A DNA stretch of 64,000 bases from NCBI GenBank assembly GCA_015057315.1, contig SVER01000011.1, forward strand, positions 1-64,000, read 5' to 3'. Made by a program: the position numbers and the translations under genes. This DNA comes from Pseudobutyrivibrio ruminis. Lineage in GTDB: Bacteria; Bacillota; Clostridia; Lachnospirales; Lachnospiraceae. Under the pieces are notes generated by a model, which was not told where the DNA came from, ran no database searches, and saw nothing but the letters and a program-made list of their open reading frames with translations. The number at the start of each line of letters is the position of its first letter. Within the stretch, counting starts at the first letter, position 1. Positions 10,501-45,324 of the stretch are shown piece after piece.

Positions 10501-11970
10501 TATTTTGTATGGAATAGGAACCTCAGGATTAACAAACTCTGAAAATCTATCTACAACCTGTCCATCAACAATCTTAACTGCACCGATTTCTATTATCTTA
10601 CAGGTACTAGGGTTAAAGCCTGTTGTTTCAATATCAAATACGACAAACTCTCCTCTAAGAGACTGTCCTCTATCGTTAGTGACAATCTGCTTGGTATCAT
10701 CTACAAGATAAATCTCGCAACCATAGATTACCTTAAAATCGCCCAAACCCTTCATGTGATCTGCATCACAGAATGCCTGAACAACGCCATGGTCTGTAAT
10801 TGCAAGAGCCTTATGCCCCCACGCCATAGCACGATTGATAATTGTAGTAATCTCTGATACACCATCAAAATCTGACATCTTAGTATGGCAATGAAGCTCC
10901 ACACGCTTTTCTACAGCTGTGTCTTGTCTTACTACTCTAAAATCACGTATCTTTTGAATAGAATTAATACGTCCTACAGTAAGCTCCTTGGAATATATAT
11001 CCTCATCAAGCTTACCGGCAATCTTATAAAAGCCGCCTACACTAAGAGCGCTTTCAAGCAATCGGCCCTGGTCTGCATCACTAAAGAAGAATTTAACCGA
11101 GATAGAATCTGTAAAATCTGTAATGGCACCAGTACCAAAATATCCGCCCTTTTTAGTTTCTCTAAATTCTAAAGCTGTAAGCTGTCCTCTAATTACAATA
11201 GGACCTAGCTGCTCTCCATTAATATCCTCAAGAGGAGTGGCATTCTCAAGTATCTCATTACCATAGATAACATCCGGGTCATCTGATTTAGTAAGAGGCT
11301 TGATAATCTTTTTTTCTGGCTCTTCTGGTGCATCATTTTCATCAGCAGATTCTTTAGCCTTTTTCTCCTCTTCCTTTTCTTCTATAGCATTTGTTCTAGA
11401 ATTGATTGCTGCAATCTTGTTTTCCATTTCCTTGATTGCATTTTCTAGATATTTACTCTTTACAGGCTCTTTGTAATCAAAATCAATTACAATATCCTGA
11501 TGACAACGTCTACAAATAATAGAATGAAGCACGTCAAAAAGCTCGTGCTCCTTTTCTCTACCAATAACTGTATCTTCTATTGTAACCTTTAGATGTCCCT
11601 CATCTGTAACATCTACATCGGCTTTTTTATATATGTTAAAAAGAAGAGCACTTCTATCCTCTAGCTCCTCTAAAATACTATCATTATATGAACTTATAAG
11701 ATTAGATGGTGTATACTGACTAGACAAATCGAAATCTTCTAGAATTTTAATTGTCACACCATTATTAGGGAAAAACTGTTTCTTAATGGACTTTTCCAAG
11801 TGCCAGATACGGCGCTTAGGAATCAGAGTATTAAAGGTAACATAAATCCTTATATCATCTTTATTACGACCTGTACTAACCTTAGTAACTGTAGCATCAC
11901 TAAGGGCTGCCTCAAGGTCGTTCTCTGCATCCATATTAGGAAACACATCATAAAAACTCATTTGATCCAT
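7540..11970 (-). CDS. polC: DNA polymerase III alpha subunit, PolC type
   Basis: The main replicative polymerase of low-GC Firmicutes, 1476 residues. Visible in order: an N-terminal domain, an OB fold (about 250-330), the first part of the PHP domain (HCHTKMSDFDGV), the inserted DEDD 3'-5' exonuclease (VVFDIETTGFNP, later HNAGFDTSF and HHRAVDDA), the rest of PHP, and the catalytic polymerase region with GSRGSVGSS and PDIDLNFSNEYQ, then the C-terminal region. A lysine/glutamate-rich linker lies near residues 190-225. The ATG follows GGAG by seven bases. A large foldable region (11987-12152) lies directly upstream. Confidence 0.98.
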   Translation of the reverse strand: MDQMSFYDVFPNMDAENDLEAALSDATVTKVSTGRNKDDIRIYVTFNTLIPKRRIWHLEKSIKKQFFPNNGVTIKILEDFDLSSQYTPSNLISSYNDSILEELEDRSALLFNIYKKADVDVTDEGHLKVTIEDTVIGREKEHELFDVLHSIICRRCHQDIVIDFDYKEPVKSKYLENAIKEMENKIAAINSRTNAIEEKEEEKKAKESADENDAPEEPEKKIIKPLTKSDDPDVIYGNEILENATPLEDINGEQLGPIVIRGQLTALEFRETKKGGYFGTGAITDFTDSISVKFFFSDADQGRLLESALSVGGFYKIAGKLDEDIYSKELTVGRINSIQKIRDFRVVRQDTAVEKRVELHCHTKMSDFDGVSEITTIINRAMAWGHKALAITDHGVVQAFCDADHMKGLGDFKVIYGCEIYLVDDTKQIVTNDRGQSLRGEFVVFDIETTGFNPSTCKIIEIGAVKIVDGQVVDRFSEFVNPEVPIPYKITELTSIKDEMVEDAPTIDVILPRFMEFCKGTVLVAHNAGFDTSFIRHNCKLLGLEYDFTHVDTVEMARYLHPNMARFNLDAVCKAENLVNEHHHRAVDDAEVTSKIFEKFIVKLEAENIFTLTELNAHSKPGAEQIKKMRSNHCIVLAKNDLGRINLYRLVSESHLYYFSRHPRVPKSLLEECREGLIIGSACEAGELYDAIVDGRDESEIMRIANFYDYLEIQPVGNNEFMIRSEKSKYENINSVKDLQEINKKIVALGEELNKPVVATCDVHFLDPEDEVYRRIIMANKGFDDADQQAPLYLHTTDEMLEEFAYLGLAKAHEVVVENTNRIADMCERIHPVRPDKCPPVIEHSEEDLRRICETRAHEVYGPELPEIVSARLERELNSIIGNGYSVMYIIAQKLVWKSNEDGYLVGSRGSVGSSFAATMAGITEVNPLPPHYRCPNCFYVDFDGPEVQEIVNQGLSGVDMPDKICPKCGKPLAKDGFDIPFETFLGFKGDKEPDIDLNFSNEYQSKAHKYTEVIFGDGQTFKAGTVSTLADKNAVGYVLKYFEKRGIRKRRAENERLAKGVEGVKSTTGQHPGGVVVLPNGEDIYSFTPVQHPANKDTDIVTTHFDYHKIDANLLKLDILGHLDPTMIKRLEDLTGIDATKIPLDDKGVMSLFQSTEALGITPDDIMGTPLGTLGIPEFGTDFAMQMLVEAKPKYFTDLVRIAGLAHGTDVWLGNAQDLILSGTATITEAICTRDDIMVYLIHKGLDPAESFTIMERVRKGVVAKGKCDEWPTYKQHMKEHGVPDWYIGSCEKIKYMFPKAHAAAYVMMAWRVAYCKIYYPLAYYAAFFSIRAGGFDYEKCCLGKARCEQEIKYYKSQSDLSATDKDILIALRLCQEMYARGFEFLPMDLYQSDSRYFKIVDGKLLPPFNVISGMGDKAAEQLQIAASQGKFLSQDEIRDRGKVSQTILDKMIELGIVKDLPKSNQLSLSDFFNL

Positions 11971-11986
11971 AACATATCTCCAGGGG

Positions 11987-12152
11987 TTTAGTCCGGGGTG
12001 TTACGCTATCAAACTAATTATTACTTCGTCGCGAGATTGGCTCCTTCAGTAATAATTAGTTTGACAGCTACCCCCTCACTTAATACCTTTAGTTCGAGGT
12101 ATGGGGCCCTCTTGCTCGCGCCTGCCAACATTTTGCAACACCCCTCACTAAA
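11987..12152 (-). ncRNA. Foldable leader region in front of polC, contains repeat A
   Basis: The 217 bases between polC and ispG fold into a closed multi-branch structure. The closing helix pairs 11987-11992 with 12147-12152 (TTTAGT/ACTAAA) and 11995-12002 with 12137-12144 (GGGGTGTT/AACACCCC), separated by a 2x2 loop. Inside are the long repeat A hairpin (12005-12068) and a hairpin at 12083-12102 (ATACCT/AGGTAT) that can extend through 12071-12074 with 12103-12106. The structure ends 6 bases before the polC Shine-Dalgarno (11978-11981). I recognise no known RNA family. Regulation of polC is an inference from position; the pairings are seen. Confidence 0.5.
11995..12075 (-). repeat. Repeat A: structured hairpin module, related to 43525-43620
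   Basis: A perfect 15-bp stem (12011-12025 with 12048-12062) extended by two pairs, then a 1x1 mismatch, GCT/AGC (12005-12007 with 12066-12068) and an asymmetric TAC/T internal loop. The 22-base apical loop (12026-12047) carries GTCGCGAGATTGGCTCC. Loop and basal part are shared with repeat B; the stem sequence is not. Confidence 0.75.
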
Positions 12153-12194: not shown

Positions 12195-13253
12195 TTACGA
12201 TTGTGGGCGAGGCCAGGCGATAAGTTCTTGGCGAAGGGCTTCTAGAAGCTCGCCTTCTGGCAGCTTTTTAACTACCTCGCCGTGTTTGATGAGAAGGCCT
12301 TCGCCGATGCCGCCGGCTACGCCGAGGTCGGCTTCTTTGGCTTCCCCTGGGCCGTTTACTACGCAACCCATAACAGCTACTTTAATGTCCAAATCTGAGA
12401 ATTCTTCTACGAGATTTTCTACCTTATTGGCAAGACCAATTAAATCTATTTGGGTACGGCCGCAGGTAGGACAGGATACTACTTCTATTCCACCTTTTCT
12501 AAGGCCAAGTGTACGAAGGATAAGCTTAGCTGATTTAATCTCTTCGATAGGGTCGCCTGTAAGAGATACACGAATGGTATCGCCAATGCCCTGGGATAAA
12601 ATCATAGAAAGACCGCATGCACTCTTGATGTTGCCAGCCTTAAGTGTACCGGCTTCTGTAATACCTACGTGAAGAGGATGTGTAGTCTTATCTGCAATAA
12701 GCTCATGTGCCTTAACGCACATCATAACATCAGAAGATTTGATGCTGATTACAAGATTGTCATAGCCTAATCTTTCGATAATTGCTACCTTATCAAGTGC
12801 TGATTCAACAAGACCTTCTGCTGTAACGCCACCGTACTTTTCTACAAGATTCTTCTCTAAAGAGCCTGAGTTAACACCAACTCTAATAGGAATATTCTTA
12901 GCCTTTGCTGCATCAACAACAGCCTTAATTCTTTCTTCGCTTCCAATGTTACCTGGATTAATTCTGATTTTGTCAGCACCATTTTCAATAGCTGCAATAG
13001 CAAGTCTATAGTCAAAATGAATATCTGCAACAAGAGGGATGTTGATTCGTTCTTTTATCTTTGCAATAGCCTTAGCAGCATCCATATCTGGAACAGCACA
13101 TCTGATAATATCGCAGCCCGCTTTTTCAAGCTCTTTAATCTGAGCAACAGTAGCATCAACATCCTGTGTCTTTGTATTTGTCATAGATTGGATAAGGATA
13201 GGATTACCGCCACCAATCACTCTATTTCCAATTTTAACCTCTGTAGTTTTCAT
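12195..13253 (-). CDS. ispG: 4-hydroxy-3-methylbut-2-en-1-yl diphosphate synthase (flavodoxin)
   Basis: Sixth step of the MEP isoprenoid pathway, converting MEcPP to HMBPP with a [4Fe-4S] cluster. The 352 residues show the GcpE TIM barrel (begins VKIGNRVIGGGNPILIQSMT) and the cluster cysteines in VSCPTCGRTQIDL and VMGCVVNGPGEA, plus the following glutamate. It lies 10 bases after rseP and shares the cluster with dxr and uppS, which feed and use the same pathway. In Bacillus subtilis this position before polC is held by proS. A terminator-like hairpin follows. Confidence 0.97.
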   Translation of the reverse strand: MKTTEVKIGNRVIGGGNPILIQSMTNTKTQDVDATVAQIKELEKAGCDIIRCAVPDMDAAKAIAKIKERINIPLVADIHFDYRLAIAAIENGADKIRINPGNIGSEERIKAVVDAAKAKNIPIRVGVNSGSLEKNLVEKYGGVTAEGLVESALDKVAIIERLGYDNLVISIKSSDVMMCVKAHELIADKTTHPLHVGITEAGTLKAGNIKSACGLSMILSQGIGDTIRVSLTGDPIEEIKSAKLILRTLGLRKGGIEVVSCPTCGRTQIDLIGLANKVENLVEEFSDLDIKVAVMGCVVNGPGEAKEADLGVAGGIGEGLLIKHGEVVKKLPEGELLEALRQELIAWPRPQS

Positions 13254-43298: not shown

Positions 43299-43373
43299 AA
43301 CTCTCACCACCCCGTAATTTTTTAGAAAATCTAGCCAAATTGCATGGAATTACGCGCTTTAACTTTTGTGTAT

Positions 43374-43524: not shown

Positions 43525-43620
43525 AAAACCAGATTGTTACGCTCTCAAGCCTTAGTATTACTCCGTCGCGAAATTGCTCCTCGAGTAACACTAAGAGCTT
43601 GATAGCTACAATCTGGTTTT
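43525..43620 (-). repeat. Repeat B: structured hairpin ending the flgE operon
   Basis: Outer 13-bp perfect stem (AAAACCAGATTGT, 43525-43537, with 43608-43620), the TAC/T internal loop, GCT/AGC, a 1x1 mismatch, and an inner stem of about 20 pairs (43545-43562 with 43584-43602) with one bulge and one mismatch. The 21-base apical loop (43563-43583) has GTCGCGAAATTGCTCC. On the minus strand GGTTTTTGTTTTGG follows, so it can end flgE transcription. It shares loop and base with repeat A. Confidence 0.75.
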
Positions 43621-43644: not shown

Positions 43645-45324
43645 TTATCGTTTAAGGTTGATAAGTTCTTCAAGCATTGTGTCGGATACGGTGATGATAC
43701 GTGAGTTTGCCTGGAAACCACGTTGAGTGGTAATCATGTCGGTGAACTCTGCAGAAAGGTCTACGTTAGCCATTTCAAGCTGTCCTGTGTTCATAGAAGA
43801 ACCATCAGCTGAAATGTCAACTCCGATACCATCAAACTCTCCTGAGTTAAGTGTTGTCTTGTAACAGTTGTTACCAATTTCTTCAAGACCAGATGCGTTT
43901 GCGAATTGAGCAGCTGCAATCTGTCCTAAAAGAACTGTGTTACCATTTGAATAAGAACCATAAATCCTACCGTCATTAGATACTGAAAGACCTGTCATGG
44001 TACCAAGCTTCTTACCTTCGCCTCTCATAATTGTTCCATCTGGAACACCACGGTTTGCAACAGCTGTTGATGTACCGCCGTTATCATAATTCATAAGCTG
44101 AGCAAAATCGATAGAGATATCAGATAGAGCCTGATTAATTTCAGGTGGCTGCTCAGGATCTGTTGTGCTTCTATTAGGTCCAAGAAGGGAAGTATGTAAT
44201 GTTATTTTTTTACTTCCTGTAGCTCCTGCATAAATCAAATTACCTTCTTTTGTATCAAACTGAAGCTCTGATGCTGCAAAGGTAATATCTAACTTTTCTG
44301 TAGCCGCATCATAGCTTACGCCTAATACCGCTCTATCATCATCCAATCCACATGCCTGAGCTAAAGAAATTGGTGCTGCCCCAGCAGTACTACTAACAAA
44401 TTTTTTAGTTTTTGCATCAAATGTGTAGTCAGAAACACCACCATAGCTGAATGTCTGTGGATTTGTTGTACTTGAAGCAGTAAATCCATCACTAAGGGAA
44501 TAGCTACGTTTAAATTCTTCTGTAGTATCTCCACCAAAAATCTTATCAAGAGTATGAGGCTCTCCAGTTGTAACCTCTTCATTTAAATAATTAGCCAAAA
44601 TATCTACATTATTCTTGTCAGTAATTCCTGTTAAGCTCACTGAATATTTTCCCATAGTCTCATCTTCAAGCTTAATAGAAAACTTTGCAGTATATGGATA
44701 TCCCAGGTTATCATAAAGAGTAAAGGAACGAATATATCCACCTGATGATTTAAATTGCGAATCATATTTGTCAAGCACTCCACTAAAGCTAGCTTCTGTA
44801 GTAGCTTCTGGTGGAGATGTTAGATTTGCCGGTTGCATAACACGCAAAGGAGTAACAGTATTTTTAGTGATAACCGAAGGATTATCAGGATCAACCTGCC
44901 ATCCCATAACAAGGTAACCAGTTGTTGTCATAGCAAGGTTACCATTACCATCAATATAGAATGAACCAGCTCTTGTAAATACGTTCTCAGAACCATTATT
45001 TACTACAAAAAAGTTGGTTGTATTAGTGTCAGATAATCTAATATCAAGGGCATCACCAGTAGACTGGGCAGCGCCTGATGAAGTAACAGATATTTTTGTT
45101 GCTCCATTAGTAACACCAAGACCAATCTGCTTAGCATTTACACCACCACGGGTTGCAGTGGCACCAGATGCCTGTGAAGTTGTCTGATACATAATATCAG
45201 AAAACGTTGTTGAAGATGATTTGAACGCAACTGTGTTAACGTTAGAGATGTTATTACCAATAACATCCATTTTTGTCTGATGTGTCTTAAGACCTGCCAC
45301 ACCAGAGAAAAGTGATCTCATCAT
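43645..45324 (-). CDS. flgE: Flagellar hook protein FlgE
   Basis: A 559-residue axial protein. The N-terminal rod/hook motif is MMRSLFSGVAGLKTHQTKMD then GNNISNVNTVAFKSS; the C-terminal helix region (AELTDMITTQRGFQANSRII) is typical for hook proteins. The start at ATG 45324 has GGAGG nine bases upstream; the open frame extends 23 codons further without family support. Its size, larger than FlgG (about 260), and its place after flgD and the TIGR02530 gene indicate FlgE. No flbD follows. Confidence 0.93.
   Translation of the reverse strand: MMRSLFSGVAGLKTHQTKMDVIGNNISNVNTVAFKSSSTTFSDIMYQTTSQASGATATRGGVNAKQIGLGVTNGATKISVTSSGAAQSTGDALDIRLSDTNTTNFFVVNNGSENVFTRAGSFYIDGNGNLAMTTTGYLVMGWQVDPDNPSVITKNTVTPLRVMQPANLTSPPEATTEASFSGVLDKYDSQFKSSGGYIRSFTLYDNLGYPYTAKFSIKLEDETMGKYSVSLTGITDKNNVDILANYLNEEVTTGEPHTLDKIFGGDTTEEFKRSYSLSDGFTASSTTNPQTFSYGGVSDYTFDAKTKKFVSSTAGAAPISLAQACGLDDDRAVLGVSYDAATEKLDITFAASELQFDTKEGNLIYAGATGSKKITLHTSLLGPNRSTTDPEQPPEINQALSDISIDFAQLMNYDNGGTSTAVANRGVPDGTIMRGEGKKLGTMTGLSVSNDGRIYGSYSNGNTVLLGQIAAAQFANASGLEEIGNNCYKTTLNSGEFDGIGVDISADGSSMNTGQLEMANVDLSAEFTDMITTQRGFQANSRIITVSDTMLEELINLKR

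Follow-up and report, generated by a model that had tools for sequence, protein, structure and literature searches.

The stretch analysed here, called the window, comprises 64,000 nucleotides of Pseudobutyrivibrio ruminis DNA (contig SVER01000011.1, positions 1 to 64,000) and carries two copies of a hairpin element that read on its minus strand, which is also the strand of the flanking genes. Copy A follows ispG, which stops at 12195, and precedes polC, which starts at 11970, the gene names being given by family match. Copy B follows a FlgE-like gene that stops at 43645 and precedes a MotA/PomA-like gene that starts at 43310; these names are best family matches under the single-gene cut-offs, with the FlgEFG subfamily model above its cut-off. 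The parts of the two copies are as follows:

11992..12078, minus strand: copy A, whole element (covariance model match, 80.8 bits)
12071..12075, minus strand: copy A, 5′ arm GGGGG of the outer stem P1, with TGA before it, an operon-type flank (sequence, fold)
12068..12071, minus strand: copy A, 5′ foot GTAG (invariant in 18 aligned copies)
12048..12068, minus strand: copy A, 5′ arm of the long stem P2, 21 pairs, one of them G-U (fold)
12026..12047, minus strand: copy A, apical part GAAGGAGCCAATCTCGCGACGA (sequence)
12005..12025, minus strand: copy A, 3′ arm of P2 (fold)
12000..12005, minus strand: copy A, 3′ foot CGTAAC (invariant in 18 aligned copies)
11995..12000, minus strand: copy A, 3′ arm CACCCC of P1, followed by GGACTA (sequence)
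43528..43616, minus strand: copy B, whole element (covariance model match, 88.4 bits)
43609..43620, minus strand: copy B, 5′ arm AAAACCAGATTG of the outer (terminator) stem (sequence, fold)
43583..43606, minus strand: copy B, 5′ arm of P2, with one bulged T (fold, model)
43564..43582, minus strand: copy B, apical part (sequence)
43541..43563, minus strand: copy B, 3′ arm of P2 (fold, model)
43525..43536, minus strand: copy B, 3′ arm CAATCTGGTTTT of the outer (terminator) stem, followed by TGTTTT (sequence)

An earlier note, made from the sequence alone, had placed the two copies at 12003-12070 and 43538-43608, where they are indeed seen, and had described a shared base (TACGCT/AGCTA), the adjoining TCAA/TTGA pairs and a loop GTCGCGARATTG(G)CTCC, all of which are found in both. 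The stems differ between A and B, yet each is self-complementary, and the differing outer flanks pair too; this last description is amended in that A has an operon-type outer stem and B a terminator stem. Both copies fold far better than shuffled sequences, with z values of -6.0 on the plus and -8.1 on the minus strand for copy A and of -9.8 on the plus strand for copy B.

Copy B is of the terminator type despite the next gene lying on the same strand, and a promoter-like site of that gene (consensus match only) is situated between the two, at 43402-43374. With the loop limited to 8 bases, a terminator scan missed copy B. A terminator-like hairpin also lies between ispG and copy A, at 12178-12155 on the minus strand, so that ispG and polC may not form a single transcript.

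Size, range and anatomy of the family

Copies A and B had been taken for a two-copy module, a count corrected by the covariance-model search that the earlier note itself had suggested: the element belongs to a genus-wide, multi-copy family whose stems covary. Searching the source genome with copy A, copy B and the loop pattern gave 10, 15, and 10 matches, respectively, the 15 for copy B including partial and reverse-strand ones at E up to 1. A first covariance model, built from 18 copies aligned on the window's minus strand, gave 66 matches in the source genome (150 of 1055 candidates scored), one of which is a reverse-strand shadow, leaving 65 copies; a second model, run on the fetched stretches of that genome, gave 65 again. 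In two relatives, G006 and G008, 72 and 65 matches were found at E up to 0.001.

A survey of 61 genomes (the source genome, 28 of the same genus and 32 of other genera) applied stricter filters and scored at most 72 candidates per genome, so that its counts are lower bounds. Matches occurred in 28 of the 61, all of them Pseudobutyrivibrio (28 of the 29 of the genus, the source genome included), and in none of the 32 genomes of other genera. Within the genus, the counts extend down to at least six matches in G004, at least one in G007 and none in G021, which is 83% complete. In a family-wide sample of 397 genomes from 334 genera, with the best 11 candidates per genome scored, two genomes matched, both Pseudobutyrivibrio, and no second genus carried the element. 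The family thus seems confined to Pseudobutyrivibrio within the genomes sampled.

The earlier note knew of no named family with this loop, and no Rfam family matches either. At the curated thresholds of Rfam 15, the window gave no match, and at 20 loci the element was not matched, the only hits at these loci being tmRNA and TPP and lying outside the element; a permissive search (E up to 10, 301 bases) returned two miRNA families only, far below threshold and at chance level. Among the titles listed by literature searches, which covered mainly open-access and top-ranked papers, none describes this hairpin family, and the main texts of PMC12306157 and PMC8040213 contain neither 'butyrivibrio' nor 'lachnospir'. 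The covariance model could also be put forward as a new RNA family. Carriage by phages or plasmids was considered and rejected after viral contigs gave no exact match to one loop pattern (that of one of several tips) and a plasmid collection gave no match to copy B.

Read on the minus strand from the outside inwards, the element consists of P1, the feet GTAG and CGTAAC, CAA/TTG pairs, P2, an internal loop, a short stem and a loop. P1 varies in both sequence and length. The outer ends of the feet lie 71-80 bases apart in the 48 of 65 copies of the source genome that have both, and model matches span 86-95 bases. P2, of about 20 pairs (at most 22 modelled), is largely free in sequence and often has one bulged T on its 5′ side. 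Conserved, purine-rich internal loops enclose it, GTAG/CGTAAC forming the one at its base. The internal loop near the tip is of the AAGGA/GACG or the AAGCGA/GAGCG type, both with what reads from the sequences as a GA/GA step.

In the 18 copies aligned first, GTAG, CGTAAC and CAA/TTG are invariant and the tip varies. The feet vary somewhat in the wider set: GTAG stands at the 5′ foot of 162 of 200 copies (54/65 in the source genome, 54/64 in G008, 54/71 in G006) and is missing from 38. By rough pattern classes, the tip that the earlier note had taken as the conserved loop is present in A and B but is one of several, occurring in 11/65 copies of the source genome, 8/64 of G008 and 6/71 of G006; tips of the form GGA-NAC...GTN-GA number 13, 26, and 24 in the same order, those of the form CGA...GAGC 19, 18, and 23, and those outside the classes 22, 12, and 18.

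Three known motifs were considered and set aside. A CsrA site was suggested by the GGA in the tip; many copies, however, have CGAAG instead. A kink-turn would have a three-base bulge right beside the GA/GA step, and none is apparent on reading the sequences. Integron attC sites came into question as the stems vary and still pair, but the feet do not seem to match the core-site motifs.

Covariation and strand bias

That pairing kept through sequence change marks selection on structure, as the earlier note had argued from two copies, is borne out by covariation, by compensated changes between orthologous copies and by a one-strand excess of G-U pairs. The alignment used for covariation has 103 rows (101 distinct), 65 from the source genome and 38 from relatives. 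Two-sided change is seen in 28 of the 30 modelled pairs, and 90.4% of the paired cells can pair, far above the 62.8% of shuffled and the 35.0-53.9% of slid controls; the covariation score reaches 0.654, compared with 0.175. Covariation is favoured by the alignment having been fitted to the structure and by the use of 18 of its rows to train the first model, although we do not think that this explains a gap of such size. The stem at the tip, P3, is weaker in the same alignment, with 67.6% of cells paired, and 41 of the 103 rows have an A-G mismatch at one pair of P2 (columns 15-117).

On the sense strand, P2 holds 105 G-U against 8 A-C pairs in the model alignment. Because the model itself favours G-U, the count was redone with the arms aligned and all mismatches scored alike. 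This strand-symmetric recount covered 195 of the 200 copies of the three genomes, five without a recognisable 3′ foot being skipped, and gave 3674 Watson-Crick, 163 G-U, 16 A-C, 189 A-G, 64 U-U and 90 other pairs, orthologous copies not being independent. Since the ratio of G-U to A-C would invert if the opposite strand were read, selection acts on the sense strand, which is the one co-transcribed with the flanking genes. Of the 200 copies, 194 also fold more stably in sense than in antisense. Selection on structure at the level of RNA is thus well supported.

Template switching is known to correct imperfect palindromes, and a DNA-level artefact of this kind could keep the arms paired with no RNA function. 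As the source of the pattern seen here it is extremely improbable: such correction should be indifferent to strand, yet G-U exceeds A-C about 10 to 1, which refutes it in part, and it would erase asymmetric internal loops, yet these are among the best-conserved parts of the element.

Comparison with the two relatives adds changes at orthologous sites. Both flanks match between the source genome and G006 at 36 of its sites, and between the source genome and G008 at 34 (38 and 37 pairs when tandem copies are counted separately). The element is at least 97% identical at 16/36 and 16/34 of these, respectively, the flanks being 76-97% identical, and at the remaining sites the best element pair is lower, down to 53%. 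Twenty-four orthologous pairs, chosen by hand from the 75 found and mostly of intermediate divergence, were compared base pair by base pair, with the structure taken from the source-genome copy only: of 761 base pairs, 664 are unchanged, 46 differ by two-sided and 24 by one-sided changes that keep the pairing, 25 have lost it and 2 coincide with gaps. Counts made on the model alignments were discarded, as register shifts inflate two-sided changes; copies L107 and L302, for instance, are 98% identical and still show 12 apparent two-sided changes.

Position behind genes and proposed roles

In the source genome, by crude reading-frame calls, the upstream gene is co-directional for 62 of the 64 copies with a call. 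Within a limit of 300 bases, the element lies sense to the upstream gene in 61/63 copies there, 58/62 in G008 and 58/67 in G006, a total of 177/192; the other 15 are antisense, some of them head to head with a sense copy. None of the 200 copies of the three genomes was called between divergent genes, 8 being without an upstream call. The median distance from the stop codon to the start of the model is 25, 27, and 46 bases in the source genome, G008, and G006, respectively. The downstream gene is mostly co-directional, often starting 10-30 bases on, and is otherwise a gene on the other strand. In operon copies, the hairpin stands between the stop codon and the next start, and the flank GGACTAGGAG continues into the ribosome-binding site of the next gene. 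The hosts include such core gene pairs as thyA-dfr, plsY-gpsA, ispG-polC, fabF-fabZ, rnr-smpB, rnc-smc, and pyrB-pyrI, names that are best family matches on fragments and mostly under whole-protein cut-offs.

The outer stem is often longer where the next gene lies on the opposite strand. Of the 57 copies so placed, antisense ones among them, 36 have an outer stem of at least 8 pairs, against 14 of the 135 before a co-directional gene, and a T-run of at least four is found in 20/57 against 5/135; a further 8 copies are without a downstream call. Part of the copies, B included, share hairpin and T-run with intrinsic terminators, the conserved module forming the tip of the stem, whereas most copies lack the T-run and precede a co-directional gene; a hairpin directly followed by a T-run is not a property of the family as a whole.

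Taken together, the strand bias, the compensated changes and the place behind stop codons locate the action of the element in the upstream gene's transcript. Our preferred reading, which we hold tentatively, is that it is a genus-specific, cis-acting mRNA hairpin of 3′ untranslated and intercistronic parts that caps or processes transcript 3′ ends. The hairpin would act after transcription by stopping 3′ to 5′ exonucleases and would thereby set the 3′ end and the lifetime of the upstream message; this is the simplest task that such a hairpin could have, in operons and terminators alike. Within operons, such protection would take effect once the downstream part is processed or decays; at operon ends, the element would be the upper part of an intrinsic terminator hairpin. 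The conserved, purine-rich internal loops may be read by a protein.

The sense-strand structure, the sense placement, the terminator link, the retention at orthologous sites and the core genes among the hosts all speak for 3′-end capping. It accounts less well for the conserved internal loops, which a pure exonuclease block does not need, for the T-run being found in so few of the copies with a gene on the other strand, and for the antisense copies. A comparable repeat also points the other way: ERIC is reported, in PMC2229807, to make the upstream transcript less stable.

The main rival to capping, though an unlikely one, is a ribonuclease processing site, at which RNase III or a similar enzyme would cut the long stem and give the parts of an operon message different lifetimes. 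A double-strand-specific enzyme would find its kind of substrate in a conserved stem of some 20 pairs whose sequence is free and whose internal loops are fixed, and the sense orientation agrees with such a role. There are precedents in ERIC and NEMIS, small repeats that, as set out in PMC2229807, are co-transcribed with their neighbours, with RNase III action proposed for NEMIS, RNase E described for ERIC, and the orientation of ERIC crucial for its effect on mRNA; these occur in other taxa than the element studied here and are compared by description only. Processing alone, however, leaves unexplained the copies at the ends of operons, since hardly anything follows there that could be split off.

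The closeness of operon copies to the next start, together with the flank that reaches the ribosome-binding site and the conservation of the internal loops, could instead be taken to indicate a protein- or ligand-binding element that controls the downstream gene as an attenuator or translation switch and so forms a regulon. This is very doubtful. For 13 of the 65 copies of the source genome, the downstream gene is convergent (by the crude calls, at least one of which, at L039, is doubtful), so that there is no gene to control, and no copy was called behind a divergent gene. A family search of 10 downstream genes, of which 9 were matched, revealed no common functional theme.

Site turnover, nesting and likeness to known repeats

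Among the polC loci fetched, 6 of the 9 from Pseudobutyrivibrio match the model at this site and none of the 71 others does; the three Pseudobutyrivibrio loci without the element, which count against 3′-end capping, have short spacers. Since sites at housekeeping genes exist without the element, no single copy looks essential.

The flgE site, that of copy B, is clear in 26 of the 29 genomes of the genus, the source genome included; at L346, the site is unreadable. Five loci match the model, four in sense and one in antisense. By eye, G008, G015, and G019 have a plain terminator there (GCTAGGGCG-loop-CGCCCTAGC), G016 has the GCTAGGGCG/CGCCCTAGC stem with a shortened element as its loop, and G024 combines a stem almost like that of copy B with an element that is mostly missing. 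At these sites, as the sequences read, P1 is the stem of a host hairpin and the element its loop; at L285, by the same kind of reading, P1 seems to have arrived together with the element. Also behind flgE, L341 (G017) and L342 (G013) have long, nested-looking terminator hairpins, CCCGTAG...ACGGGTTTTTTT, which are unmatched by the model and are perhaps a diverged relative of the family.

Among the 64 copies of G008, 31 have flanks that are long enough and show no flank match to source-genome copies. For 12 of these, the joined flanks were searched in the source genome (G000), G006, and G015, and 8 were aligned, L251 (no partner set), L273, L278, and L286 not being among them and one G000 partner of L247 remaining unplaced. 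Element-free sites were found for the second copy of L245 in G000 and G015, for L287 in G000, G006, and G015, for L258 in G015 and for L285 in G006; L252 is element-free in G006 with other sequence there. The element is kept at L285, the first copy of L245, and L252 in G015 and at L247 in G006, and the first copy of L245 is present in G006 with a different sequence. At 4 of the 12 queried sites (L258, L285, the first copy of L245, and L266), the source genome has another hairpin-like repeat instead, CTTCYCC...GGRGAAG...GATGAGGGT, at its loci L371, L374, L380, and L389. This substitution favours 3′-end capping and would fit a requirement for some hairpin, whatever its sequence, although it may equally mark a shared insertion hot spot. 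No target-site duplication is evident by eye at the aligned sites.

Elements also occur inside other elements. At L102, a full element is enclosed by the stem of a second one, and the outer arms of that second one correspond to the single element in G008; at L047, a new shell lies inside an old one that G006 and G008 have kept. Nesting is claimed for inspected cases only, since a general test of outer stems stayed near its controls of shuffled partners: scores of at least 18 were reached by 19/65, 25/64, and 24/71 copies in the source genome, G008, and G006, against control fractions of 0.24, 0.26, and 0.27, and scores of at least 20 by 12/65 source-genome copies against 0.097. Relatives were compared for L102 and L047, and four further cases (L050, L054, L060, and L105) were inspected by eye in one genome.

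Presence and absence between related genomes, the nested copies, the copy number and the genus limit would all suit a selfish miniature mobile element, REP- or MITE-like, that has no host function and is tolerated behind genes. We consider this quite unlikely. The two-sided, pair-keeping changes, the one-strand G-U excess and the sense orientation speak for selection on RNA, and identities within genomes hardly suggest recent dispersal: the nearest counterpart of a copy in its own genome has a median identity of 80-83%. Among tandem pairs, identity rises to 91-92%; the top non-tandem values are 96% (two G008 copies 3.4 kb apart), then 91% and 90%. Nor was a link with a Y1 transposase seen: the source genome (94.5% complete) has no Y1 match, such matches occur in 10 of the 29 genomes of the genus, and the 8 loci scanned, out of 18 Y1 matches listed, hold no element.

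GTAG REPs, as described in PMC3733652 and PMC2817692, are multi-copy palindromes of 20-40 bp associated with RAYT transposases, lying mostly behind co-directional or convergent genes and likely to be transcribed. The present element is likewise a multi-copy palindrome, mostly downstream of coding regions and with GTAG at one end in most copies. It differs, however, in its length foot to foot, in stems whose sequence changes from copy to copy with pairing kept, and in showing no link with a Y1 transposase (RAYT). The tag of REPs is unpaired; in six predicted folds of the present element, GTAG lies partly in pairs and partly in an internal loop. Membership was rejected on length and on the missing transposase link. 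The main text of PMC3733652 contains neither 'Clostridi' nor 'Firmicutes'.

The bcr repeats of the Bacillus cereus group are also lineage-specific and intergenic; according to PMC3446304 and PMC2267715, about half are transcribed in untranslated or intercistronic parts, and bcr10 and bcr18 have conserved secondary structure. The presence of bcr3 in a transcript correlates with its decay rate (PMC3446304; a table row gives 3.6 versus 2.5, read here as half-lives), which offers a precedent for 3′-end capping. The likeness is one of description, and the texts consulted do not mention, for bcr, the sense-only placement behind genes or the embedding in terminator stems. The element resembles transcribed REP, ERIC, or bcr repeats, but differs from REPs on two of the points tested.

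A wider proposal, which we regard as rather unlikely, is that a genus-specific post-transcriptional system recognises the element. A single RNA-binding protein or nuclease would read the fixed internal loops behind at least 65 transcripts, the site having spread into the loops of existing hairpins (terminators, other repeats and even copies of itself); many core operons would thereby have had their 3′ ends rebuilt around one hairpin. It has long been asked whether structured repeats downstream of genes benefit the host or are merely tolerated. Strong signs of selection on RNA, many copies, and empty, filled, replaced and nested sites in close relatives make this question testable in one genus, and Pseudobutyrivibrio has cultured members.

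Other repeats and arrangements were seen nearby. A second intergenic family (GCGCGAGCAAGAGGGCCCC and variants), palindromic and about 110-200 bases long by eye, adjoins copy A at 12103-12121 on the minus strand; with up to 3 mismatches, GCGCGAGCAAGAGGGCCCC has one match in the window against 0 expected. By eye, it also stands at the flgE site of relatives (L331, L332, L334, L340, L344, and L351). Near matches to the CTGATGAGGG part of the third repeat, the CTTCYCC...GGRGAAG repeat, number 13 in the window, where 3.4 are expected; all of them lie on the minus strand, and they may be coding. Downstream of copies L036 and L050 of the source genome lie arrays of the 3′ half alone (TTGTTAACGTAACAGCCGGACTAG; GCTTGAGAGCGTAAC..GCGAG), so that one 5′ arm could pair in alternative ways. 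Opposite-strand copies stand head to head in G006 (C305:8685-8881, C244:28831-29022, and C270:7070-7269) and in G008 (C7:73346-73591), each of these pairs spanning about 190-250 bases.
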